IMG/VR virus record: IMGVR_UViG_3300038548_000363
Coordinates: 1 to 47,538 of that record
Source of the DNA: a virus
Length of the DNA: 47,538 nt
Direction: 5' to 3' (one strand)
The notes under the pieces were generated by a model. It searched no databases. It saw nothing but the letters and a program-made list of their open reading frames with translations, and was not told the DNA's origin. Shown piece by piece: positions 23,761 to 33,512 of this stretch. Made by a program: the position numbers and the translations under genes. Each line of letters starts with the position of its first letter. The first letter of the stretch is position 1.

Positions 23761-24272
23761 GCGCTGCTGCCGGGATCGGGACACCAATTAAGGGCCCCCG
23801 ATACAACCTGGCAGAGATATAAGGACCGGCGATCAAAAACTCGGTACACCCGGCTAGCCACCGGCATGAATGCTCCGTTAGACGGGCTCGCTAACCCCTG
23901 CCCATCCAGAGACACCCCCAGGGCCGTAACGGTATGCCTGGAGGCCCAAGATTCGGTGGGCGGAGGGGAAAAGCACCCCAGCGCTGACTTGTCACCATCG
24001 AGTCCGCGCCCCCCTGCCGATCCTCGCCGTCCGCCGTTTGTATCGGTGCTCGGAGAAAGGTTGCGCGTCCTCCTTTGCAACATGACCACAACCAATCCGA
24101 AAAGCACCGTAGGTGGACCGGGGGATCGCGATGTCTAGTAAGCCTGGCTAGCGACCCCTGGCCCGCCGATTTCCGCCTGAGAGGAGACCCGAGCACGTCA
24201 CCTCGAGGAGAGGGTGTCATCACCGTCATGCCCCGCTCAGGTCCTGTGGCCTCGCTACGCTCAGCGGCTTTG

Positions 24273-24298
24273 GTGACTAGTAACACCGGGGTGACTAG
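24273..24298 (+). repeat. GTGACTAG iterons, pair 1
   Basis: Two exact copies of GTGACTAG at 24273-24280 and 24291-24298, spaced 18 bases start to start. The same octamer recurs at 24606 and 24615, and with one change at 24629. Confidence 0.6.
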
Positions 24299-24411
24299 AC
24301 ATCAACTAGCGACACCTATGGCCGGTTATGCAAGGGTGCGTGACAGGAAGTGCTGAGAGGGTACATCCCCCCCATAGCCCCCCCCCAGGTTGAACTAGGG
24401 GGGTTTGACCC

Positions 24412-24567
24412 CAAGTAACAGCAGGTAGCGTCACCTTATCTCTGTTGTACCCAGGAGAGCTCAAGTAGGGTCAAGTAGCGTAGTTGGGAGTATGTAACGC
24501 ATTCGAGCCCGGTTTCCACCAAGTAGAGTGAAGTAAGAGCGAGCAGCGAGCGTAACATCAAGTACCC
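24412..24567 (+). repeat. CAAGTAG-family iterons
   Basis: Copies include CCAAGTAAC (24412-24420), the tandem pair TCAAGTAGGG and TCAAGTAGCG (24461-24480), CCAAGTAGAG followed directly by TGAAGTAAGA (24519-24538), and TCAAGTACCC (24558-24567). Neighbouring copies are spaced exactly 10 bases, about one helical turn, as expected for cooperative protein binding on one DNA face. Confidence 0.6.
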
Positions 24568-24605
24568 TCGGTTAGTACCACTTACCGTGGTCACCCATAG
24601 GGTAG

Positions 24606-24636
24606 GTGACTAGTGTGACTAGCTAGAAGTGACTAT
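24606..24636 (+). repeat. GTGACTAG iterons, group 2
   Basis: GTGACTAG at 24606-24613 and 24615-24622, then GTGACTAT at 24629-24636. The group lies immediately upstream of the 24651-24679 promoter, which suggests a regulatory role for the repeats. Confidence 0.6.
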
Positions 24637-24650
24637 CCTGAGAAACCACC

Positions 24651-24679
24651 TAGACACCGATGACGGCATAGGCTATATC
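24651..24679 (+). promoter_or_regulatory. Rightward promoter for the middle gene region
   Basis: TAGACA (24651-24656), a 17-base spacer, and TATATC (24674-24679), giving a transcript start near 24686. It sits 15 bases downstream of the last GTGACTA repeat and would drive the genes from 24934 onward. Confidence 0.55.
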
Positions 24680-24933
24680 TATAGGTGTCGGCTTCAAACC
24701 CGACAACGCCACACAAAGTGGCATCGGACATATGGGAACGCCTAGGTCGATTCCTAGGTGGCGGACTCCAGAAATGGACTGCGCGAGTAGCATGTCGGCA
24801 ATATCGGCCGATGGTGCCAGCCCAGGCACTTGCTAGCTATGCCGCCCACTACGCCGTGAGCGTTGTGAGGACAGACTTCTCTCTCTCTCGGGAATCCGCG
24901 AGACAAACGAGCGGACAGCGAGAGGATGAAGAT

Positions 24934-25392
24934 ATGCCAGAGTGGAATGCAGCGGCGACGATGCCAGACCTACTCGACGTAGTGATGGCAGCGATTCAGG
25001 CCGATACCCTAGAGGTCACTCAACCTGAGCAGCGAACGCCAGCACCGACGACTAGCAAGGTCGAGAGCATCGACGCCCGTACAGCACGACAGGTACTCGA
25101 CAGGCACCTAGCCGATGGAATGCCGTTAGCACAGGCTGTCGAGATGACCCGGCGCTACATGGAACGTGGCGGTGACTCGGTGATCTACCGAGTGACAACG
25201 CTTGCCGACCAGAAGCGGTACAACACCCAAGGACAGCGAGTGCGGTTCGAGGGCTTCTACCGAGGAGCGCCAGCGGTACACCAATCGGTGAGCTGCGGAC
25301 GCACCATACCGGAAGCGTCACAGGTGGCCGGTTCGAGCCGAAAGAGCAGAGCGTGGGCGCTAGCTGAGGAATGGCGAGCGATGCGCCGGTAA
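24934..25392 (+). CDS. Middle-region hypothetical protein, 152 aa
   Basis: Start chosen at the ATG preceded by GAGAGGATGAAGAT. The frame stays open further upstream, but that stretch lies over the promoter and control region and reads like chance translation. It starts MPEWNAAATMPDLLDVVMAA. A helical region (TARQVLDRHLADGMPLAQAVEMTRRYMERG, key residues R, D, L) comes before a basic beta-rich C-terminal part with YRVTTLADQKRYNTQGQRVRF. No Cys cluster. First gene of the module-led region; possibly DNA-binding. Family not recognised. Confidence 0.6.
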   Translation: MPEWNAAATMPDLLDVVMAAIQADTLEVTQPEQRTPAPTTSKVESIDARTARQVLDRHLADGMPLAQAVEMTRRYMERGGDSVIYRVTTLADQKRYNTQGQRVRFEGFYRGAPAVHQSVSCGRTIPEASQVAGSSRKSRAWALAEEWRAMRR

Positions 25393-25459
25393 CCCCCGCG
25401 GGTTGCCGAGGGAGAGAGAACCGCTACCACCGAGCGTATTCAGCGCTTGGCACCTCCCG

Positions 25460-25512
25460 GCAGCCGGCCGCTTGACGGTACTTGGCTGTTGGAAGCAGCG
25501 AGAGAGAGGACG
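25460..25512 (+). repeat. Leader module 1 (degenerate)
   Basis: CAGCC (25461-25465) can pair with GGCTG (25484-25488), followed by the AGCGAGAGAGAGG tract ahead of the 25518 ATG. The canonical GGTGC hairpin is not clear here, so this is a weak member of the family. Confidence 0.45.
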
Positions 25513-25517
25513 GGGAT

Positions 25518-26015
25518 ATGACCCGCAATCAGGTCGTGCAGGCCATGATCGACCGTGCCAACGCCTTCATCGGCAACGGCGACGGGAACGATGAGGTCAC
25601 GCCGGATCAGGTTGCCGAGGCCATCGGGGATGCCATCGTTGCGACCGCTGAGGTCAATGCTGAGGCTGCCGCAAGCAGCAACGGCGAGGTCACAGAGGAC
25701 GCCACTGATGACGCCCCCGACGATGAGGAACCGAAGCGGCAGAAGTTCGAGCCGCTGGACCCGGACGCCCTAGCGACGTTCGGTCAGAAACGGCTCCTGC
25801 AAGGCCTCGCCACCTACGCAGACGGCAAGCCCATTCGGCTGCTGTATGCGGCGGATTCGGACGAGCGAGCGATCGTGGATGGGAAGTGGACCGCAGGGCT
25901 CGCTTTCGAGGCGCTCGACGCCATGCTCCACTTCAGCAAGTGGCAGCACCCCTTGGGCTACACGTTGGTGCCCGACGCCGACGCTGTGACCAAGTTCCAC
26001 AACCAGCAGGCGTAG
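25518..26015 (+). CDS. Acidic hypothetical protein, 165 aa
   Basis: ATG chosen after the GAGAGAGAGG tract; an upstream in-frame TTG would place that tract inside the gene. Starts MTRNQVVQAMIDRANAF. The central part is strongly acidic (EDATDDAPDDEEPKR, about residues 60-75). The C-terminal half contains GLAFEALDAMLHFSKWQHPLGY and ends FHNQQA. The acidic segment could mimic DNA or serve as a flexible linker. No recognised family. Confidence 0.6.
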   Translation: MTRNQVVQAMIDRANAFIGNGDGNDEVTPDQVAEAIGDAIVATAEVNAEAAASSNGEVTEDATDDAPDDEEPKRQKFEPLDPDALATFGQKRLLQGLATYADGKPIRLLYAADSDERAIVDGKWTAGLAFEALDAMLHFSKWQHPLGYTLVPDADAVTKFHNQQA

Positions 26016-26070
26016 CCAGCGTGGGCTGCCCATTGGGTGGCTCACGGTGCCGACGCACCAGAGAGAGAGC
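26016..26070 (+). repeat. Leader module 2 (orphan)
   Basis: Hairpin 1: 26021-26045, GTGGGC...GCTCAC with an inner CCC/GGG. Hairpin 2: GGTGC (26046-26050), loop CGAC, GCACC (26055-26059). The GA tract is 26060-26069. No real gene follows: only GTG ATG CTT TGA at 26076-26087, then a 24-codon frame at 26113-26187 without a ribosome site. Confidence 0.7.
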
Positions 26071-26138
26071 TGGTCGTGATGCTTTGACTGTGTGACGGCT
26101 CGACCGACCAACATGGCCGAGAGGCCTCGCTGCTTAGG

Positions 26139-26286
26139 CAGCGTGGGAGCCATCGGATCAGGCGAATCAAGAAGCGGCACGCGGTGAGGACCGACGAACC
26201 CCTCGAAGGGTTGTGGACCACCGACCGCACACGCTCAAGAAAAGCCCCGGTGGCTCCCACGGTGCTTAGGCACCAGAGAGAGAGGA
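26139..26286 (+). repeat. Leader module 3 with long structured loop
   Basis: Hairpin 1 arms GTGGGAGCCA (26143-26152) and TGGCTCCCAC (26251-26260) are exact complements enclosing a 98-base loop. The loop contains its own stem AACCC/GGGTT. Hairpin 2 is GGTGC-TTAG-GCACC (26261-26274), then the GA tract and the ATG at 26290. The large loop makes it a candidate structured RNA. Confidence 0.65.
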
Positions 26287-26289
26287 ACC

Positions 26290-26580
26290 ATGCAGATTCG
26301 ACATGACGCCAGGTTGCGAGTGTTGATTCGATCCGGTGGCGTGACACTCAGCGAAGCCGAGGTCCGCGCCGAGGATCTGGACGCCCACCTCACGGTGCAA
26401 GCGTACATCTACAACGCCAACCCGTACTCGGGTGGCGGCTTGTGGTGGAACCCAGCATCCGGTGGCCGGCTCGCTAAGGCCCCAACGGCCAGCTACGAGC
26501 TGATCGACCCCGGTGACGAACTCACCAACGGCGACCTATGCACCTGTACGGCGTGCGTAGCCAGCGCGGAGGCTTCCTAA
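26290..26580 (+). CDS. Hypothetical protein, 96 aa
   Basis: Starts MQIRHDARLRVLIRSGGVTLSEAEV; begins five bases after an AGAGAGAGAGG tract. Aromatic and Gly-rich middle (YSGGGLWWNPASGG, about residues 46-59). The C-terminus has C-T-C-T-A-C (three Cys), which may bind metal. Its stop codon TAA forms the loop of hairpin 1 of the next leader module. Family not recognised. Confidence 0.6.
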   Translation: MQIRHDARLRVLIRSGGVTLSEAEVRAEDLDAHLTVQAYIYNANPYSGGGLWWNPASGGRLAKAPTASYELIDPGDELTNGDLCTCTACVASAEAS

Positions 26581-26619
26581 CGGAGGCCCCCCCGGTGCCA
26601 ACGCACCAGAGAGAGAGGC
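26571..26619 (+). repeat. Leader module 4
   Basis: Hairpin 1 GGCTTCC (26571-26577) with GGAGGCC (26582-26588) spans the stop codon of the preceding gene. Hairpin 2 is GGTGC (26594-26598), loop CAAC, GCACC (26603-26607), followed by AGAGAGAGAGG. Confidence 0.7.
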
Positions 26620-26625
26620 CATGAG

Positions 26626-26982
26626 ATGGATATGAATGTCGTGGTGATCGCCGGAACCCTGGCGGCGGCACCCGAGCATCGGGTGTACGAGTCCGGTGCC
26701 GGGCTGTGGAAGCTGCTGGTCACCACCAGGATGACCGAACCCCGCAAGCGGGTTGACGTTCTCCCGGTGACCTATTGGGACACCGACGAGGCCGAGCACA
26801 TGACCGTGCTCGACGCCCTCGACCGGGGCGACCGGGTATGGATCGTAGGCACGCTCCAACGCCGGTTCTGGTCCTCAGATGGTGGCGTGCGGCGCTCCAG
26901 CGTGGAGCTGATCGCCAACCACATCGAGGCCACCGAGGCCACCGCTACCGATGCCATTGAGGCAATGGTGCCCCAAGCGTGA
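26626..26982 (+). CDS. ssb: Single-stranded DNA-binding protein (OB fold)
   Basis: 118 aa. Pattern typical of SSB: N-terminal MNVVVIAGTLAAAPEHRV, then L-x-V-T-T-R, a LPVTYWD strand, GDRVWIVGTLQRRFW and a final V-x-L-I-A-N-H-I strand. It is shorter than bacterial SSB, and the C-terminus (EAMVPQA) lacks the classic DDDIPF acidic tip, so partner recruitment may differ. The ATG at 26626 gives a seven-base gap to the GAGAGAGAGG tract; a nearer ATG at 26621 yields only a four-residue peptide. Coats ssDNA during replication and recombination; works with the clamp at 28400 and the RecT-like protein at 34467. Confidence 0.75.
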   Translation: MDMNVVVIAGTLAAAPEHRVYESGAGLWKLLVTTRMTEPRKRVDVLPVTYWDTDEAEHMTVLDALDRGDRVWIVGTLQRRFWSSDGGVRRSSVELIANHIEATEATATDAIEAMVPQA

Positions 26983-27095
26983 GCGCACCGCGACGGCTTG
27001 GGCCCTTTGAAGATTGGACCGAAGCCGTAGCCTGGGTGGTGTTCGCCTTTGTGGGCGCATACTTCGGTTACCAATGGCTGATCTGGCTGCTGTAG
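26979..27095 (+). CDS. Small membrane protein, 38 aa
   Basis: GTG start overlapping the SSB stop (GTGA). Starts MSAPRRLGPFEDWTEAVAW; residues about 17-38 form one transmembrane helix (AVAWVVFAFVGAYFGYQW). It has a basic N-terminus and ends WLIWLL. Inner-membrane location predicted; function unknown. Confidence 0.55.
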   Translation: MSAPRRLGPFEDWTEAVAWVVFAFVGAYFGYQWLIWLL

Positions 27096-27172
27096 CCAGC
27101 ATCTCGTCGCCCTACCCGGCTCCCACCGACGTAGGGCGGCGGGCTGGTGCCAACAGCACCAGAGAGAGAGGA
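27096..27172 (+). repeat. Leader module 5
   Basis: Hairpin 1 CGCCCTAC (27108-27115) with GTAGGGCG (27131-27138). Hairpin 2 GGTGC (27146-27150), loop CAACA, GCACC (27156-27160). GA tract AGAGAGAGAGG, then the ATG at 27176. Confidence 0.7.
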
Positions 27173-27175
27173 AAC

Positions 27176-27520
27176 ATGGCAACGAGAGAAGCCACGGTCA
27201 CCGATCGGGTCGCTCGCGGAGCCGCTCTGCTCGACTCTTACGGGGGTTTCGCAGACGAGCCGAGCGATGAGGCTTGGTGGAATCAGATCGACCTGGACAA
27301 GCTCGACATGAGGATCGGGTACCCCGACTTCGACAACGGATGCGGGTGCATCCTGACTCAGCTGTACGGGGGGTTCGGGATCGGCAAGGACGAGCTGGAG
27401 ATCGACAGCTTGGAGGCCGAGGAGTTCGGCTTCGAGGCGATGGGCGTGCCGCTCAACATTGAGTACGAAGCGCTCCTCGAGGTATGGAGCGAGCTCATCG
27501 AGGCACGGCGATCGAAGTGA
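27176..27520 (+). CDS. Acidic hypothetical protein, 114 aa
   Basis: Start placed after the GAGAGAGAGG tract. Starts MATREATVTDRVARGAALLD. A central G-C-G-C-I-L-T-Q-L-Y-G-G-F motif (about residues 54-66) resembles small actinophage proteins of unknown function that carry a LDxxYPGWxxxI- and CILgQl-like pattern. The C-terminus is helical and acidic, then RRSK. Overlaps the next ATG by one base (TGATG). Confidence 0.6.
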   Translation: MATREATVTDRVARGAALLDSYGGFADEPSDEAWWNQIDLDKLDMRIGYPDFDNGCGCILTQLYGGFGIGKDELEIDSLEAEEFGFEAMGVPLNIEYEALLEVWSELIEARRSK

Positions 27521-27753
27521 TGGCCTTCACGATGGTGCATACCAAGACCTGCATCGTCTGTGGACAGGCCGGTTTCATCATGCTCGAAACCGAGAAGTGG
27601 GACCGCTATCAGGCCGCTCGGGATGACCATTCGCTACCGAGCCAGCACGTCCAAGACGTATGGCCCGACATGCCGGCCAGCCAGCGTGAGCAGATCACCT
27701 CCGGCACCCATTCACGGTGTTGGGATGAGCTGTTCGGTGATGACGAGCCGTAG
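27520..27753 (+). CDS. Actinophage-type zinc-ribbon protein, 77 aa
   Basis: Starts MAFTMVHTKTCIVCGQAGF: a C-x-x-C knuckle, then QDVWPDMPASQREQITSGTH and CWDELF. This layout (Cys knuckle, D-x-x-P-x-x-x-x-x-x-R-E, then G-T-H-x-x-C-W-D-x-x-F) is a small-protein family often seen in actinobacteriophages, with no known function. The start overlaps the preceding stop (TGATG). It is useful mainly as evidence for an actinobacterial host. Confidence 0.65.
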   Translation: MAFTMVHTKTCIVCGQAGFIMLETEKWDRYQAARDDHSLPSQHVQDVWPDMPASQREQITSGTHSRCWDELFGDDEP

Positions 27754-27757
27754 ACAG

Positions 27758-27831
27758 CATCCCTCCCGTCCCAGGATACGCGCCTAGGGGCGGGGGGGCT
27801 GGTGCCTACGGCACTAACGAGAGAGAGGAGC
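27758..27831 (+). repeat. Leader module 6
   Basis: Hairpin 1 CCCTCCCGTCCC (27761-27772) with GGGGCGGGGGGG (27787-27798). Hairpin 2 GGTGCC-TAC-GGCACT (27801-27815). GA tract GAGAGAGAGGAG, then the ATG at 27835. Confidence 0.7.
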
Positions 27832-27834
27832 AAC

Positions 27835-28170
27835 ATGGACATCAGCGACGTAGATGTGCCGCTGTTGGCCGAGCAAGTCCGCAAGATTGCGGAGGCAGAG
27901 CCACTTGGCAGAGCGCAATGTCGGTACTTCGAGGATGACGGCCAGCCCCTGTGCTTGGTCGGTCATGCCCTGGCCCTACAAGGCATCACACTGGCCGATG
28001 TCACGCACCACGGCAACGGGACGTACATCGGCACCGTGCTTGACACCGTTGGTGACGAACACGGCGTGATCTTGGACTGGCTGGGCGCAGTCCAGTACAA
28101 GCAGGACGCGGGGTGGCGGTGGGAAGCGGCGGTCAAGTGGGCCGACACCGAAGGCAACCACGCACCATGA
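27835..28170 (+). CDS. Hypothetical protein, 111 aa
   Basis: Starts MDISDVDVPLLAEQVRKIAEAEP. A C-R-Y-F-E-D-D-G-x-P-x-C-L-V-G-H-A-L pattern (about residues 29-46) recalls a widespread actinobacterial and phage small domain that contains a CxYF...PxCLVGHvL motif. The function of that family is not known to me. It overlaps the next gene by ATGA. Confidence 0.6.
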   Translation: MDISDVDVPLLAEQVRKIAEAEPLGRAQCRYFEDDGQPLCLVGHALALQGITLADVTHHGNGTYIGTVLDTVGDEHGVILDWLGAVQYKQDAGWRWEAAVKWADTEGNHAP

Positions 28171-28328
28171 GTGACACGTTCATTGCGGTCAAGCGACCGA
28201 AGGGTGGCGTCCACAAGCGGTGCATGCATTGCAACCTGCCGGCGACAACGACGGCGGTTCGCAAGGCCAACGGCCACAGAATGGAGGTCCGCTACTGCGA
28301 CGACCATGCCGAGCTGATAATCGGGTGA
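28167..28328 (+). CDS. Small zinc-finger-like protein, 53 aa
   Basis: Starts MSDTFIAVKRPKGGVHKRCMHC. The ligands C-x-x-C and C-x-x-H (YCDDH) form a plausible zinc site. It is basic at the N-terminus. Four-base overlap with the preceding gene. Function unknown. Confidence 0.6.
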   Translation: MSDTFIAVKRPKGGVHKRCMHCNLPATTTAVRKANGHRMEVRYCDDHAELIIG

Positions 28329-28333
28329 CTAGC

Positions 28334-28398
28334 AGCCAGCGGGGTGCAAGGCCCCGCCACCCACGGCTCGCAGAGTGCGAGCAACGAGAGAGAGGAGC
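28334..28398 (+). repeat. Leader module 7
   Basis: Hairpin 1 GCGGGGTGCAAGGCCCCGC (28339-28357). Hairpin 2 differs in sequence but keeps its form: GCTCGC (28366-28371), loop AGAG, TGCGAGC (28376-28382). Such compensatory change supports selection for structure. GA tract then the ATG at 28400. Confidence 0.7.
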
Positions 28399-28399
28399 A

Positions 28400-29059
28400 A
28401 TGATGGGACTAAGCGTGCTGTTTAGGCTCAGCCGGAGACAGGCGAAGGCCATCTCCTGGCTGGTTGAGGCCGCAAGCAAGGACCAAGCCAGGCCGACGAT
28501 CGCCAGCATCAACATGGAGTGGGTGCTGGAGGATGACGACCTGCTGGTGACCTTCGTGGCTACCGACAGCTACCTGCTGGCAACCCGCACATTGAGGTTC
28601 GTCAAAGGCACCTTCGAGGCCGAGCCCGACGAGGGCACAGCCTTGGTGCCGGCCAAGCGATTCACCGATGCGCTCAAGTCGGCAGTCAAGCATGGCCCGC
28701 CAGCGGTAGGTCCGAAGGCCACCGAGTTGCAAGACACGTTGGTTGAGATCACCGAAGCCGGGGTCAACGTGGCCTCGGTCAATGGTGACTACTTCGAGGG
28801 CATCCGGCTCGTCGAAGGCGACTACCCGAACTGGCGGCAGCTCATCCCCGAGCGCGGCGAGCACCTTGTGGCGCTGTCTCCGCACAACCTGTGGAAGGCA
28901 ACCCGCATCGTGAGCCAGCCGGTCAGCTCGCAGGATGCAAAGCCGATGCGTGTCTACATCAACACCAACGACCCGCTCAAGCCGGTGATCTTCGAGGTCA
29001 TCGACGAGGCCGCTGGTGCTGGTGAGTTGACGGTATTGGTGATGCCGGTACGGCTGTGA
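28400..29059 (+). CDS. DnaN-like DNA polymerase sliding clamp (short form)
   Basis: About 219 aa from the ATG pair at 28400/28403. Recognisable clamp features: FVATDSYLLATRTLRF, the core strand plus loop of a clamp domain (about residues 53-68); GTALVPAKRFTDALK; NGDYFEGIRLVEGDYPNWRQLIP; and the C-terminal VLVMPVRL, equivalent to the MPMRL end of bacterial DnaN. Bacterial clamps have three domains in about 370 residues, so this one probably has two and would need a different oligomeric state to form a ring. Likely tethers host polymerase III to phage DNA. Confidence 0.7.
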   Translation: MMGLSVLFRLSRRQAKAISWLVEAASKDQARPTIASINMEWVLEDDDLLVTFVATDSYLLATRTLRFVKGTFEAEPDEGTALVPAKRFTDALKSAVKHGPPAVGPKATELQDTLVEITEAGVNVASVNGDYFEGIRLVEGDYPNWRQLIPERGEHLVALSPHNLWKATRIVSQPVSSQDAKPMRVYINTNDPLKPVIFEVIDEAAGAGELTVLVMPVRL

Positions 29060-29253
29060 TCCTGGCCTACCAGGGCAACAAGGTCGTCGGTACCGTCGTC
29101 AGCTGGGAGGAGTGCCCGAACGGGCATGACACCATCGAGGGCGGCCCGGTCCAGATCGACGGCACCGAGGCATGGCAAGCGGTGTCGTGCTTGACGTGCA
29201 ACACGACCTGGACCGAGATATACCGAGCCTCGTCCCGCCTCATCGAGAGCTGA
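29056..29253 (+). CDS. Small Cys-pair protein, 65 aa
   Basis: GTG start overlapping the clamp stop (GTGA). Starts MILAYQGNKVVGTVVSWEECPNGH. C20-x-x-x-H and a C-L-T-C near residue 45 could form a zinc ribbon; ends SSRLIES. Function unknown. Confidence 0.55.
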   Translation: MILAYQGNKVVGTVVSWEECPNGHDTIEGGPVQIDGTEAWQAVSCLTCNTTWTEIYRASSRLIES

Positions 29254-29254
29254 G

Positions 29255-29315
29255 GCAGCGTGGGGTGCGCGAGCAATCGCGTGCCTCCCGGTGTTACAGC
29301 ACCAGAGAGAGAGGA
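29255..29315 (+). repeat. Leader module 8
   Basis: Hairpin 1 GGGGTGCGCGA (29262-29272) with TCGCGTGCCTCC (29277-29288), tetraloop GCAA. Hairpin 2 GGTGT (29290-29294), loop TACA, GCACC (29299-29303). GA tract, then the ATG at 29319. Confidence 0.7.
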
Positions 29316-29318
29316 CAC

Positions 29319-29555
29319 ATGACACCCACAGAGGACAGGCTGGTGGTGGACGCCCTCAACGAGGTGCGTCTAGCCATTGAAGAAGGCATCGAGAAGCTGC
29401 CTGAGTTCACTACATCCGACGCATATGTGGCGCTCGACATCGGGCGCTGCACCCTCGAAGGTGTCCTCGCCGGGGCCAACCCGGTCGAGGAGGGCTACGA
29501 GGTAGTGCGACGGTGGCGACACAAGGCGTCACGCTGGTCGGCAGCGAGGGGGTGA
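29319..29555 (+). CDS. Hypothetical helical protein, 78 aa
   Basis: Starts MTPTEDRLVVDALNEVRLAIEEG; predicted to be mostly helical, with a basic C-terminus (RRWRHKASRWSAARG). Begins eight bases after the GA tract. No recognised family. Confidence 0.6.
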   Translation: MTPTEDRLVVDALNEVRLAIEEGIEKLPEFTTSDAYVALDIGRCTLEGVLAGANPVEEGYEVVRRWRHKASRWSAARG

Positions 29556-29710
29556 CAGCGTGGGAGCCATCGCAGCAGAACCCTACGTCTGCTCGGTGAC
29601 TCCCACGGTGCTACCCGCACCAACCCGAGAGGGGAGTGGGGGAGGTGACCGCGAGCAAAGAAAGCTCCGCTCCCCCCTTCCCTCCACAAGTATACGAGAG
29701 AGGAGGGACA
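29556..29710 (+). repeat. Leader module 9 with extra hairpin
   Basis: Hairpin 1 GTGGGAG (29560-29566) with CTCCCAC (29600-29606). Hairpin 2 GGTGC (29607-29611), loop TACCC, GCACC (29617-29621). A third stem GGGGAGTGGGGGAGG (29631-29645) faces CTCCGCTCCCCCC (29665-29677). A second GAGAGAGGAGGG tract then leads into the ATG at 29714. Confidence 0.65.
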
Positions 29711-29713
29711 GAA

Positions 29714-30070
29714 ATGGGATTGCATGAGACATTGAGCGTGCTACCCGACCTGCATACCGTCGATGACCACCTGACACCCAACACCCGCGCGGTGTGGGTG
29801 TTCACCCCCGACTCCAGCCTTGACTGGCTGGTATGGGAGTACGACCCCATCAGCGGCATGGCCTTCGGGCTGTGCGACATGGGCCAAGGATCACCCGAGA
29901 TCGGCTCGGTGGTGATGACCCAGCGCGACGTGGGGTACGAGGACGACGACGTTGTGGACAAGCTGCGTGGAGGCTACGGCCTGCCCGTTGAGGTAGACAA
30001 GACGATCAACACGATCGCCAAGGGCTACCGCCACAAGGCGCTAACCGCGCCCGAAGGGCTGTTCACATGA
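29714..30070 (+). CDS. DUF2958-like protein, 118 aa
   Basis: Start set after CGAGAGAGGAGGGACAG. Starts MGLHETLSVLPDLHTVDDHLTPN. The central segment FGLCDMGQGSPEIGSVVM matches the shape of DUF2958 (F-G-L-x-D-x-G-x-G-x-P-E-L-G), followed by LPVEVDKTIN. The role of DUF2958 is not established; it is common on mobile elements and phages. Overlaps the next gene by ATGA. Confidence 0.6.
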   Translation: MGLHETLSVLPDLHTVDDHLTPNTRAVWVFTPDSSLDWLVWEYDPISGMAFGLCDMGQGSPEIGSVVMTQRDVGYEDDDVVDKLRGGYGLPVEVDKTINTIAKGYRHKALTAPEGLFT

Positions 30071-30453
30071 GGCCGCCAAAGTATGTGCCCGACGATCCAG
30101 ATGGCATCGTCTTGCAGAATTGGGGGCCAGTCACGCTGCAATACGGCCGCAACTACGGCGTGCCGCCAGTCAGCACCGCATGGGGAGCGCGTGCCATCCT
30201 CACCGATGGCGTGCTCGACCTGGTGGGCGACCGGATGGGCAGCGCAGGCCCACTCGGCAAGCAGCTGATCGAGTACCTGGTGGCCCACTTCCCCGACCTA
30301 GACAAGCGGGTTGAGGAGATGAGCTTCGATCCAGGTGACGACGAGCTCCATACCGTGTTCGAGGATGACGACGCCATCGTGGTCGCCTCGACCAACGCCA
30401 GCTACGGGTACCTGTACCTGCGAGCCTGGTTCAAGGTTGACGAGATCGTTTGA
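30067..30453 (+). CDS. Hypothetical protein, 128 aa
   Basis: Starts MRPPKYVPDDPDGIVLQNWGPVTLQYG. Mixed alpha/beta; acidic C-terminal half (FDPGDDELHTVFEDDDAIVV). The start overlaps the preceding stop. No known motif. Confidence 0.6.
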   Translation: MRPPKYVPDDPDGIVLQNWGPVTLQYGRNYGVPPVSTAWGARAILTDGVLDLVGDRMGSAGPLGKQLIEYLVAHFPDLDKRVEEMSFDPGDDELHTVFEDDDAIVVASTNASYGYLYLRAWFKVDEIV

Positions 30454-30526
30454 CAGCGTTCCGGCCATGGTGCCCGCGCACACCGTGGCCGGGCCGGTGC
30501 CAACCGGCATCAACGAGAGAGGAGAC
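30454..30526 (+). repeat. Leader module 10
   Basis: Hairpin 1 CCGGCCATGGTG (30461-30472) with CACCGTGGCCGG (30481-30492). Hairpin 2 GGTGCC (30495-30500), loop AACC, GGCATC (30505-30510, one wobble). GA tract CGAGAGAGGAG, then the ATG at 30531. Confidence 0.7.
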
Positions 30527-30530
30527 ACAC

Positions 30531-31007
30531 ATGGACATGCTCAACAGCGAGCGGGTGAGGCTGATCGAGTTGGCCCGCAACTTGGACAGCTCGGCTGACA
30601 GCTCGGCCCGCAGTCAGATCAACGCTGTGCTGGCAGCCGAGCCTGCCACCTACCCAGTGACGATCACCTTCCAAGTGCGTGACCCGTACCTGGAACTCGG
30701 TGACAGCCCGCAGAGCTACGAGCTGAGCGGGATCATCACCGACGCGGTGATCGAGGAGCTGGCACCCGAGTGGTTCCAAAAGGAACACGGTGCCGGCTGG
30801 TACGTCGATGCCACCAAGGACGGCACCGGCAACACCGGCACCGGGGGATGGACACCGATCGAGGTACCGACGGTGTACAGCTCGGCGCAGATCGACAAGA
30901 ACCTGCTGCGTGAACAGCTGCTCGAGGTCATCGAGGGGTTCGATACACGGACCTGGGGCCAAGCGCTGGACGCGCTCGCCAAGATCGAGAGCCTGATCCG
31001 AGCCTGA
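30531..31007 (+). CDS. Hypothetical protein, 158 aa
   Basis: Starts MDMLNSERVRLIELARNLDSSADS. An N-terminal helix precedes a beta-rich middle (TYPVTITFQVRDPYLEL) and a Thr/Gly-rich loop (TGNTGTGGWTP); it ends in two helices. Preceded by a full leader module. Family not recognised. Confidence 0.6.
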   Translation: MDMLNSERVRLIELARNLDSSADSSARSQINAVLAAEPATYPVTITFQVRDPYLELGDSPQSYELSGIITDAVIEELAPEWFQKEHGAGWYVDATKDGTGNTGTGGWTPIEVPTVYSSAQIDKNLLREQLLEVIEGFDTRTWGQALDALAKIESLIRA

Positions 31008-31008
31008 T

Positions 31009-31085
31009 TGACAGCGTGGGGTGCGTGGTCTGATACATGCCGCGTGCCCCACGGTGCCAACCGGCACCACTACGAGAGAGAGGAG
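31009..31085 (+). repeat. Leader module 11
   Basis: Hairpin 1 GTGGGGTGCG (31016-31025) with CGTGCCCCAC (31043-31052). Hairpin 2 GGTGCC (31053-31058), loop AACC, GGCACC (31063-31068). GA tract ACGAGAGAGAGGAG, then the ATG at 31090. Confidence 0.7.
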
Positions 31086-31089
31086 AGAC

Positions 31090-31659
31090 ATGGGACTGGA
31101 TATGTACCTGTACGAGAACGTGTACATGAGCAACTGGCCTCACAGCAAGGAGGCTGACGAGGCTCAGTACACCGACGCCCTATCGGTCCTGGCCCTCGCC
31201 GGGATCAAGCCCGACCCCCAAGTGGGCGGGTACGGCGTGGAGGTCAAGACCCCGGTGGTCTATTGGCGCAAGGCCAATGCGATCCACCTGTGGTTCGTCG
31301 CCCATTGCCAGAACGCGGTCGATGACTGCGGGAACTATGACGTGGAGGACGAGCAGCTCACGGAGCTGGTTGAGCTATGCCGCAAGGTGCTCGACGCATC
31401 CAAGCTGGTGCCTGACATGGTGTCCAACGGCCAAACGAGGGTCGATGGCAAGTGGCAGAACAACCAGGAGATGGGCCAGGTCATCCTTGACCCGTCCACA
31501 GCAGAGGAGCTGTTGCCCTCGGGTGAGGGGTTCTTCTTCGGCAGTACCGCTTACGACCAGTGGTACCACGCCGACCTGGTGCACACCGTTGCGGCCATCG
31601 AGGGTGCAATGGCACACCGGGTGGAGGGATCGGGGTTCGAGTATCACAGCAGCTGGTAA
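31090..31659 (+). CDS. Conserved phage protein (MGLDMYL family), 189 aa
   Basis: Starts MGLDMYLYENVYMSNWP, then VVYWRKANAIHLWFVAHCQN, DDCGNYDVEDEQL, and a C-terminal LPSGEGFFFGSTAYDQWYHADL. This order of motifs (MGLDMYL, YWRKANAIHxWF, DDC, GFFFGSTxYDxWY) marks a small-protein family widespread in phages and some bacteria. No biochemical function is known to me. Full leader module upstream. Confidence 0.7.
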   Translation: MGLDMYLYENVYMSNWPHSKEADEAQYTDALSVLALAGIKPDPQVGGYGVEVKTPVVYWRKANAIHLWFVAHCQNAVDDCGNYDVEDEQLTELVELCRKVLDASKLVPDMVSNGQTRVDGKWQNNQEMGQVILDPSTAEELLPSGEGFFFGSTAYDQWYHADLVHTVAAIEGAMAHRVEGSGFEYHSSW

Positions 31660-31682
31660 CAGCCAGCACCGAGAGAGAGGAA
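31660..31682 (+). repeat. Leader module 12 (reduced)
   Basis: Only the CAGCCAGCACC 3' part and the GAGAGAGAGG tract remain between the stop at 31659 and the ATG at 31685. The two hairpins are missing. Confidence 0.5.
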
Positions 31683-31684
31683 CC

Positions 31685-31972
31685 ATGGAAGCAAGCGAGA
31701 TACTGCGTGCCATCTCAATGGGTGACGCCGACGAGGTGCTCGACGAGCTGGGCCAAGCCATACGGGAGCGCTGGAAGGCGCGCACGATAGCGGCCAAGGA
31801 CGCGTTCATCATTGGTGACCGCGTTCAGTTCACCGACCAGGCCAGGCGATTCGCTGGTCAGATCGGTGTCGTCACCAAGAAGCTGCCAAAGAACGTCATC
31901 GTGACGTTGGATGACGGCTCGGGTGATGTGCGAGCAGCGCCGACGCTCATTGCGCTACTCGTTGTTGATTGA
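31685..31972 (+). CDS. KOW-like small protein, 95 aa
   Basis: Starts MEASEILRAISMGDADEV. The C-terminal half FIIGDRVQFTDQARRFAG-QIGVVTKKL-x-VIVTLDDG resembles a KOW / SH3-like barrel, which binds nucleic acid or ribosome-associated proteins. The N-terminal half is helical. Possible translation or transcription partner; tentative. Confidence 0.55.
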   Translation: MEASEILRAISMGDADEVLDELGQAIRERWKARTIAAKDAFIIGDRVQFTDQARRFAGQIGVVTKKLPKNVIVTLDDGSGDVRAAPTLIALLVVD

Positions 31973-32043
31973 CAGCGTGGGGGCCACCGACAACCATCGG
32001 TGGTCCTCCCGGTGCCAACCGGCACCAACCGAGAGAGGAGACA
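31973..32043 (+). repeat. Leader module 13
   Basis: Hairpin 1 GGGGGCCACCGA (31979-31990) with TCGGTGGTCCTCC (31997-32009), loop CAACCA. Hairpin 2 GGTGCC (32011-32016), loop AACC, GGCACC (32021-32026). GA tract CCGAGAGAGGAG, then the ATG at 32047. Confidence 0.7.
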
Positions 32044-32046
32044 GAG

Positions 32047-32889
32047 ATGCCAGGCATCACAAGCGACAAGCAATATGAGCATGGCAACTACGCCCGGTAC
32101 ACCCTGAATGGGTGCCGGTGCAAGCCATGCACCGCTGCGGTAGCCGAATACCGTAGGCAGAACGCTGGACGCACCCTGACTGTGGACTCTGAGCCCTACC
32201 GGACGAGGATTCGTGGCCTCATGCGACGCGGCTATTCCTACAAGGCAGTAGCCGACGCCGCTGGGGTTGCCCGATCCGCGGTGGGGTCCATCATCTACGG
32301 ACGCGTCGATCGCACCGCCAAGAGAATCAGGATCGCCACCGCCGAGGCTCTCGATGCGGTCACCATCAGTGACATCATCAAGACCGGCACCGGCGAGATT
32401 CCGTTCTCGGTGGTCGAACCGCTCCTCGAGGAGCTGCTTCGAGCCGGGGCAAAGAAGGCATGGATCGCCAGCTACATAGCAGGCAAGCCAACCGTTTCCT
32501 TCCAGCTAGGCAAGGGGCATGGGATCACAGCGTGGCGAGCCGTCAAACTGTGTGACTACTACGCCGAGTTCACTGGTCACAACCCGTGGCAAGTGATCGA
32601 CGAGGGTAAGGCCTCGATGTCCAACGTGTCTCGGATGTACGACCTGCTCGACACCGTGTGGGGGTCGTGGCTCAGCACCGACCGGCTTATTACCGAGTTC
32701 AACAACCGCTGGGACACGGACCCTGCGACCGTGCGTCGAGCGCTAGAACGGGTGCTTTCGGAGCACCGTGAGTGTGGCTGCTACCTGTACCGGATGGTGC
32801 CGAATGCAGTCGCCCGAGGCAAGGCGTACACCACCCGAGAGGTGTTCGCCACCAACCCATATACGAGAGAGGAGGACCATGTTGCATGA
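32047..32889 (+). CDS. Zinc-knuckle plus helix-turn-helix DNA-binding protein
   Basis: 280 aa. N-terminal domain HGNYARYTLNGCRCKPCTAA (about residues 12-31), a Cys-knuckle found in many actinophage proteins. Next comes RRGYSYKAVADAAGVARSAVGSII (about residues 59-82), a good helix-turn-helix. The C-terminal half is helical with WHR-like features (WLSTDRLITEFNNRW and VRRALERVLSEH). Candidate regulator of the leader-module region or of replication. Its 3' end overlaps the next gene's ribosome site and start. Confidence 0.65.
   Translation: MPGITSDKQYEHGNYARYTLNGCRCKPCTAAVAEYRRQNAGRTLTVDSEPYRTRIRGLMRRGYSYKAVADAAGVARSAVGSIIYGRVDRTAKRIRIATAEALDAVTISDIIKTGTGEIPFSVVEPLLEELLRAGAKKAWIASYIAGKPTVSFQLGKGHGITAWRAVKLCDYYAEFTGHNPWQVIDEGKASMSNVSRMYDLLDTVWGSWLSTDRLITEFNNRWDTDPATVRRALERVLSEHRECGCYLYRMVPNAVARGKAYTTREVFATNPYTREEDHVA
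32862..32876 (+). promoter_or_regulatory. GA-tract ribosome site inside the upstream gene
   Basis: ATACGAGAGAGGAGG lies within the end of the 32047-32889 gene and serves the ATG at 32879. It is the Shine-Dalgarno part of the leader module without the hairpins. Confidence 0.55.
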
Positions 32890-33163
32890 ACCCGACCGGC
32901 TCGACGAGGACAAGGAACGTGAGCAAGCCGAGCGAGACTACGACCCCAACGAGGTGATGGAGGCTCTCAATTCAGAGGACCTCATCGACATCGTTTGGGC
33001 AGTCATCGAAGGCGGCGAGCCTCTCGTCCTTGCCCTCTCGATCTACAAAGAGAGAGTGACACCACCCGAGCCCGACTACGAGCAGATCATGGAGGACCGG
33101 GCGCTCAGACATGGGCGTGATCCCGAAGCCGTCATGTGGGGCGGGGAGGACATCCCGTCCTAA
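32879..33163 (+). CDS. Acidic hypothetical protein, 94 aa
   Basis: Starts MLHEPDRLDEDKEREQAERDYDP; very acidic, helical, with Glu/Asp-rich ends. Start overlaps the preceding gene by 11 bases. It resembles DNA-mimic or partner-binding small phage proteins only in composition. Confidence 0.55.
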   Translation: MLHEPDRLDEDKEREQAERDYDPNEVMEALNSEDLIDIVWAVIEGGEPLVLALSIYKERVTPPEPDYEQIMEDRALRHGRDPEAVMWGGEDIPS

Positions 33164-33199
33164 TCCATTTCGTGTCACAAGCACCTGCTACGGTGACGC

Positions 33200-33290
33200 G
33201 ATCCACTGGTGATGGTGCCGGGGAACCTCCGTTCCTATTCCCATATGTCCGGTAACCCCCCGGCACCCCGCCACTGGACGAGAGAGGAAC
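33200..33290 (+). repeat. Leader module 15 (long hairpin)
   Basis: GGTGCCGGGG (33214-33223) pairs with CCCCGGCACC (33258-33267) over a 34-base loop, and is followed by GGACGAGAGAGG before the ATG at 33291. The segment 33164-33199 upstream is short and shows nothing definite. Confidence 0.55.
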
Positions 33291-33512
33291 ATGGCCGACG
33301 ACTCCGCAATCGTACGCATCGAACAGATCACCGGCGAGGCACTCGATCTCGCTGCGCTGCTCGACACCGAGATCGCACGCATCGACAACCCCGAGGCGTG
33401 GCGACTCGCACTCGGATTCGTCCACGGCGTTGAGTCCCGACTGTGGCGCATGGAGCGTGACATGCTCCGCGCCGCTCGCGACCAAGCCGACAAACATCGA
33501 GGGAGCAAATGA
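33291..33512 (+). CDS. Helical small protein, 73 aa
   Basis: Starts MADDSAIVRIEQITGEALDLAALLDTEIAR; helical with coiled-coil tendency, basic tail (DKHRGSK). First gene of a 15-gene overlapping chain that runs to 38702. The next ATG overlaps its stop (ATGA). Unknown function. Confidence 0.6.
   Translation: MADDSAIVRIEQITGEALDLAALLDTEIARIDNPEAWRLALGFVHGVESRLWRMERDMLRAARDQADKHRGSK

Follow-up and report, generated by a model that had tools for sequence, protein, structure and literature searches.

Repeated elements beside the translation starts of phage genes have gone unexplained since 2011. The closest described examples are the start-associated sequences (SAS) and extended start-associated sequences (ESAS) of cluster K mycobacteriophages; variation among the ESAS arms gives no support for pairing as RNA (PMC3203893), SigA-like promoters lie inside ESAS (PMC11373665), and a 2025 survey still calls the function of SAS/ESAS unverified. 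In cluster O mycobacteriophages, 17-bp palindromic repeats have been read as sites for dimeric DNA-binding proteins (PMC4351075). Here we describe a two-hairpin leader that is repeated in the early region of IMG/VR virus record IMGVR_UViG_3300038548_000363—the window analysed is this entire record, 47,538 bp. The leaders are a real family of covarying, paralogous RNA elements and a variant of the dispersed start-associated elements.

Hairpins of other phages provide further points of reference. The intercistronic RNase III sites of phage T7 are longer, irregular hairpins with mapped cuts; the put antiterminator RNA of HK022 is about 65 nt long, has two hairpins that nearly touch, and occurs once per early operon near the promoter. 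In T4-type phages, promoter-stem-loop (PeSL) cassettes are dispersed intergenic hairpins, with promoters, that bound exchangeable gene modules.

Architecture of the leader and its copies

The early region holds about 11 clear and four degenerate copies of the leader, each roughly 55-150 nt long and placed between translational units; they are intercistronic elements of one transcript and make up one paralogous RNA family. All clear copies lie on the + strand between 26.0 and 32.0 kb, in a single orientation relative to the genes. The order of parts is a CAGC border, stem 1, stem 2, the (C)GAGAGAGAGG Shine-Dalgarno (SD) sequence, and ATG, which is the start codon of every leader gene. The CAGC border usually falls 0-2 nt past the upstream stop, and the 3' border is GAGAGAGG; the purine-rich tract GAGAGAGG(AG), hereafter the GA tract, is strongly complementary to the anti-SD and sits about 5-10 nt 5' of the ATG.

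Folded individually, most leaders show a stem 1 of 10-14 bp, against 6 bp in the copy before 28400; ten leaders fall within 6-14 bp, and nearly all finish with stem 2 beside GAGAGAGAGG. Stem 2 is 4-7 bp long (10 bp in the last copy) and ends 14-25 nt from the start codon. The two stems are separated by 0-2 nt in most copies—none in M1, M2, M7, M8, M10 and M12, a single nucleotide in M4 and M5—and together comprise about 19 stacked pairs. Most copies share the letters of stem 2, and the CAGC and GAGAGAGG boxes hardly vary; stem-1 letters and loops are free to vary among copies, stem-2 loops are variable, and stem 2 is swapped in M6, M0 and M11. The copies are listed here, with E values and training-set membership referring to the covariance models of the next section.

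25441..25509 (+): M0, degenerate leader before gene 25518-26015, weak in models (E = 0.11 and 0.011); hairpin GCTGTT/AGCAGC at 25485-25499 (+), then GAGAGAGAGG
26017..26069 (+): M1, full leader immediately after the stop at 26015 (E = 1.7e-7); stem 1 GTGGGCTGCCC/GGGTGGCTCAC, stem 2 GGTGC/GCACC, then GAGAGAGAG
26139..26285 (+): M2, leader before gene 26290-26580 (54 bits); 14-bp stem 1 at 26143-26156 / 26247-26260, stem 2 at 26261-26274, then the SD
26562..26618 (+): M3, full leader before the SSB gene 26626-26982 (E = 4e-6)
27097..27171 (+): M4, full leader before 27176-27520 (E = 1.4e-7)
27755..27828 (+): M5, full leader before 27835-28170 (E = 5e-8); stem 2 TGGTGCC/GGCACTA
28337..28395 (+): M6, rearranged leader before 28400-29059, weak (E = 0.056)
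29256..29314 (+): M7, full leader before 29319-29555, training-set copy
29556..29703 (+): M8, full two-hairpin leader with additions before ATG 29714 (E = 1.9e-8)
30454..30522 (+): M9, full leader before 30531-31007, training-set copy; stem 1 TCCGGCCATGGTG/CACCGTGGCCGGG
31012..31083 (+): M10, canonical full leader before 31090-31659, training-set copy
31652..31680 (+): M11, remnant before 31685-31972 (E = 7e-4); CAGC, then CAGCACCGAGAGAGAGG
31973..32038 (+): M12, full leader before 32047-32889, training-set copy
32841..32872 (+): M13, minimal form before 32879-33163, within the end of the preceding gene
33170..33287 (+): M14, divergent two-hairpin leader before 33291-33512, not significant (E = 8.3); TCGTGTCAC/GTGACGCGA and GGTGCCGGGG/CCCCGGCACC, then ACGAGAGAGG

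An earlier sequence-only reading of this DNA had noticed the shared layout of two hairpins and an SD in many gaps, and every copy that it listed as full proved real on individual folding. Its list missed M1, a complete orphan with no gene behind it, where only ATGCTTTGA follows. The gap behind this orphan (26071-26142) contains tiny open reading frames only, and may be the scar of a lost gene. M3, which had been called partial, is complete; it starts 16 nt inside the upstream gene, with a coding stem-1 5' arm and the TAA stop (26578-26580) in the loop, and the fold is therefore kept even within coding sequence. Stem 1 of M4 (CTCGTCGCCCTAC/GTAGGGCGGCGGG) has letters wholly unlike the GTGGG type, while the stem-1 loop of M2 holds a 90-nt structured insertion (26157-26246) that has no match in Rfam.

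Other copies are rearranged or reduced. M6 joins its 6-bp stem 1 to a compensated stem-2 swap, the GCTCGC/GCGAGC exchange already recognized from the letters, in which 28366-28371 pair with 28377-28382. In M8 the two-hairpin part (29556-29621) is followed by an additional hairpin and a second SD (29692-29703), and an in-frame GTG at 29645 is an alternative start for gene 29714. The frame of this gene (29714-30070) is open upstream (29636-29713) to GTG 29645/29636, and its actual start is uncertain. M11, also listed as partial, is a remnant with a short hairpin (GCTGG/CCAGC) across the stop; from its sequence it looks like an ancestral leader that has lost by deletion the stretch between its two CAGC motifs. 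M0, M13 and M14 had likewise been called partial: the hairpin beside the SD is present, as GGTG/CACC followed by ACGAGAGAGGAGG in M13, but the model scores are at noise level (E = 2.7 for M13), and these copies are degenerate or independent.

Covariation and conservation of the fold

A covariance model was built from four copies (M7, M9, M10 and M12) and searched against both strands of the whole 47.5-kb record with filters off. Seven non-training copies were retrieved blind (M8, M5, M4, M1, M3, M2 and M11; E = 1.9e-8 to 7e-4). The best match outside the leader region reached E = 0.078, and the best on the - strand, at E = 0.0086, is the antisense of M12.

Among the ten best copies—the added ones aligned by fitting to the model, which favours structure—both sides have changed at 12 of 19 pairs (11 of 13 in stem 1), 36 cells are changed on both sides against about 11 expected, 93% of cells are paired against 70% in shuffles, and the covariation score is 0.64 against 0.21. 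For each of the last three measures, none of 500 shuffles reaches the real value. The four-copy MAFFT alignment yields the same covariation result, and shifting the partner columns by 1-3 abolishes the signal; the covariation is thus highly significant against both shuffled and slid controls.

Exchanging arms between copies gives the same picture. The mean duplex energy of stem 1 is -21.7 kcal/mol for the real arms and -9.6 kcal/mol with 3' arms swapped among copies; none of 20,000 permutations matches the real stem-1 pairing, and likewise for stem 2, where the 5' arm of M9 was mis-placed in this run with its letters unaffected. Over 12 copies, 136 of 140 stem-1 pairs are canonical (115 Watson-Crick and 21 G.U, with 4 other). 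G.U pairs outnumber A.C mismatches 21:2, an excess with p = 1e-4 at first and 0.035 with composition-matched cross-pairs; this test therefore gives strand polarity only moderate support.

For leader genes, the 75 nt before the start have a mean z of -3.2 against their own shuffles, compared with -0.9 for the other genes of the region (Mann-Whitney p = 3e-4 for upstream fold stability, a few comparison starts being 1-2 bases off register). Sites resembling AGAGAGAGG number 26 against a mean of 14, above all 100 dinucleotide shuffles, and the exact pattern of stem 2 plus SD has 4 matches with 0 expected.

Compensatory changes beyond chance in a defined fold mark the leader as a cis-acting, conserved structured RNA. 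Selection on RNA structure, which the sequence-only reading had proposed, is strongly supported, and structure rather than DNA is what it acts on: covariation beats the shuffled, slid and arm-swap controls, so the proposal survives the first of the refuting conditions set for it, a lack of significant covariation. The letters change from copy to copy and the fold persists, so evolution is preserving the shape of the RNA. With at least 11 diverged copies, one genome supplies the covariation that normally takes many relatives, and at least one start-associated system can now be said to work as RNA.

Genomic context

Between 25.4 and 33.3 kb, every positive intergenic gap (25-274 nt) bears the element or a remnant; the element is found at none of the -1 to -4 overlapping junctions, and the -11 junction before 32879 has the minimal form M13 only. 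From 33.5 kb onward genes overlap, and there are no further elements. That one leader heads each overlapping gene set, as had been suggested, holds without exception across 25.4-33.3 kb. The stops before the leaders include TAA, TAG and TGA, and we dropped selenocysteine-type or stop-codon read-through for that reason.

No promoter-like sites, sigma-70 matches included, were found at 24.0-33.5 kb, and TANNNT is absent from M0-M13, with one in M14. The stems are followed by GAGAGAG and no U-tract (the longest T run per leader is 0-3), so the leaders do not have the GC-rich hairpin plus U-tract of an intrinsic terminator. Terminator-like sites in the region are no commoner than in shuffles, and none lies at a full leader.

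The record as a whole has a GC content of 62%, and its capsid and terminase genes lie on the - strand. The capsid protein shares about 40% identity in alignment (37% by tblastn) with that of Mycobacterium phage Mendokysei, and the terminase only about 22-25% with those of Streptomyces and other phages; from these low identities, the source, which is uncultured, is a distant tailed phage, probably of actinobacteria. The early operon is on the + strand, its first gene starting at 24934, and includes the following genes in addition to the SSB gene at 26626-26982 (+).

28400-29059 (+): DNA polymerase processivity-factor-like gene
29714-30070 (+): DUF2958-like gene
33509 (+): replication-initiation protein gene
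34467 (+): RecT gene

Ahead of the operon, 23788-24933 is a 1.1-kb divergent non-coding stretch rich in short repeats (GTGACTAG, AAGTAGNGT), a candidate origin or early promoter/operator region. The sole long CT repeat of the record, TCTCTCTCTCTC at 24878-24889 (+), lies about 45 nt 5' of ATG 24934, within the 5' leader of the operon's first gene; its sequence complements the leaders' GA tract and is predicted to pair in cis with the SD of its own gene.

Possible functions

With no promoter motif and no U-tract, we infer that punctuation at the level of translation fits best. Our leading, still tentative, proposal is that each leader is a structural insulator coupled to a strong SD, from which each gene set is started independently, perhaps serving also as a site of mRNA stability or processing. 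The stacked hairpins would punctuate the message between gene sets: ribosomes that have completed the upstream gene could be kept from drifting onward or re-initiating, and the next ribosome-binding site (RBS) could be spared pairing with GC-rich upstream RNA. With drift stopped and the RBS shielded, each overlapping, coupled gene set would start its own translation at a strong, open SD, and, should the transcript be cut, the hairpins would probably define the resulting mRNA ends or protect them. The freely varying letters and loops of stem 1 favour a structural role over one in sequence recognition.

Predicted anti-SD pairing runs from -10.5 to -17.4 kcal/mol for leader genes and from -2.5 to -11.7 kcal/mol for the other genes of the region (two of the latter tested one base out of register), using an anti-SD that is generic for actinobacteria and may not be the host's. 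Predicted RBS openness is 0.60 for leader genes and 0.44 for other genes; it falls to 0.54 when the leader is shuffled, with non-leader genes unaffected (0.44 vs 0.43). Several points weigh against the insulator, however. The predicted gain in openness is small, and absent in M3, M4, M7, M13 and M14; the generic sequence used for scoring may differ from the real 16S 3' end of the host; SD pairing alone does not require a GA tract as uniform as this one; and the degenerate M11 and M13 show that a gene can dispense with stem 1.

The main rival, which is compatible with the insulator and which we rate as rather unlikely, is that the leaders are RNA processing or stability sites, the stacked stems being cleaved by host RNase III or bordered by RNase E/J cuts. 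Each resulting unit of the early transcript would end, and the next begin, with a protective hairpin, much as at the intercistronic RNase III sites of phage T7. An intercistronic site right after the stop, one per gene set, suits this role, as do the roughly 19 stacked pairs of stems 1 and 2 and their tolerance of sequence change while structure is kept; protective structures within operons are documented (PMC5927463). However, stem 1 by itself is short (10-14 bp) for an RNase III site, and the GA tract is conserved all the way to the start codon, which suggests a role in translation.

Less likely again, the leaders would be bound by an antisense RNA or by an RNA-binding regulator of phage or host origin that switches all early units on or off jointly. 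Such recognition would explain why stem-2 letters are the same in most copies and why CAGC and GAGAGAGG are near invariant, and the record's only CT repeat (TCTCTCTCTCTC, 24878), in the leader of the same operon's first gene, complements the GA tract; yet stem-2 loops vary, stem 2 itself is swapped in M6, M0 and M11, and the CT tract is predicted to pair in cis with its own gene's SD.

A transcriptional element—a put-like two-hairpin antiterminator, a Rho-excluding structure, or a U-less terminator or attenuator—seems improbable. Adjacent hairpins 0-1 nt apart in about 65 nt resemble HK022 put in layout, the only feature compared, and the untranslated gaps could load Rho. The stems nevertheless lack a U-tract, and terminator-like sites occur at shuffle frequency with none at a full leader; known antiterminators are single and near a promoter rather than before every gene, and here the SD and ATG belong to the conserved unit.

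We give a similarly small chance to a two-state RNA switch at each gene-set boundary. CGGTG in the stem-2 5' arm can pair with CAGCG, the near-invariant sequence after the stop (TGGTG with CAGCA in M4 and M5), which extends stem 1 and melts stem 2; this alternative state is 0-6 kcal/mol less stable, the difference being about 2 kcal/mol or less in M1, M2, M3, M7 and M8. CAGCG is covered by a ribosome ending the upstream gene, which could thereby decide between the states, so that upstream termination would control downstream initiation across the whole early operon. In M6, stem 2 is altered and CAGCG is not, which speaks against a switch. A DNA-level element, either a palindromic operator or a recombination or mobile repeat with the RNA fold as a by-product, is very improbable: inverted repeats, dispersed copies and one apparent deletion between short repeats (M11) would suit it, but the arms differ widely yet stay complementary, unlike those of a one-consensus operator, every copy has one orientation relative to the genes, and G.U exceeds A.C by 21:2, although only at p = 0.035 after correction for arm composition.

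The natural variants—full, deleted, insertion-bearing and orphan—form a test set for how a phage separates the translation of neighbouring gene sets within a single long message. If the leaders are indeed insulators, they would provide a compact natural intercistronic cassette for GC-rich hosts.

Occurrence in other phages

No entry of Rfam 15 matches the leader at the gathering score, a single unrelated match falling below threshold (E = 0.72). About 95 distantly related phage records and 74 prophage-type loci yielded no copy of the leader; the closest kin share only about 42% capsid identity, so its absence there says little. DNA similarity to the region was found in none of 50,697 phage records, and M10 alone as query gave matches only at E near 9. 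Single-protein searches with genes 31090, 28400, terminase and RecT returned no relatives, and the capsid and terminase alignments returned distant kin only, none with leaders. When IMG/VR was scanned with two DNA patterns, each returned 15 loci, every one a lone site in a different context; a scan for records rich in identical short hairpins did not discriminate. The searched collections may not include close relatives.

One leader-like site, L010:10454-10530 (-), combines TGACAGCG, a hairpin, CGGTGC/GCACC, ACGAGAGAGG and ATG (40.5 bits). We treat it as chance because it was picked by pattern, is a single copy, and lies in a record with no terminase match. That record, from an unrelated-looking phage, has three genes with (A)GACGAGAGAG(G) before the start.

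Comparison with known systems

Like the RNase III sites of T7, the leaders are hairpins between early cistrons, about one per gene or gene set; they differ in having two short stacked stems, of predicted structure only, joined to a fixed GA-rich SD. HK022 put, compared by layout only, occurs once per operon, whereas the leader occurs in 11-15 copies, every one linked to a start codon. The dispersed intergenic hairpin layout is shared with PeSL cassettes, but no promoter was found here.

Cluster O repeats are likewise short, dispersed inverted repeats, many of them intergenic; unlike the leaders, they have invariant arms, are untied to translation starts, and lie inside genes in about one third of cases (PMC4351075). 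The likeness to cluster K SAS/ESAS (PMC3203893) is closer: both systems are dispersed in the non-structural half, before the starts of genes with long upstream gaps, and both pair an RBS-overlapping box with an upstream inverted repeat and mostly ATG starts. The box by the start codon differs, being (C)GAGAGAGAGG here and the 13-bp GGGATAGGAGCCC in SAS. Whereas ESAS has a 17-bp inverted repeat of near-fixed consensus, the leaders have two stems with compensatory change, and arm letters that differ among copies; and unlike ESAS with its SigA-like promoters (PMC11373665), leaders M0-M13 contain no promoter motif. The sequence-only reading had named cluster K SAS as the nearest precedent, and the comparison stands for position only, while in the pairing of their arms and in promoter content the two systems part ways.

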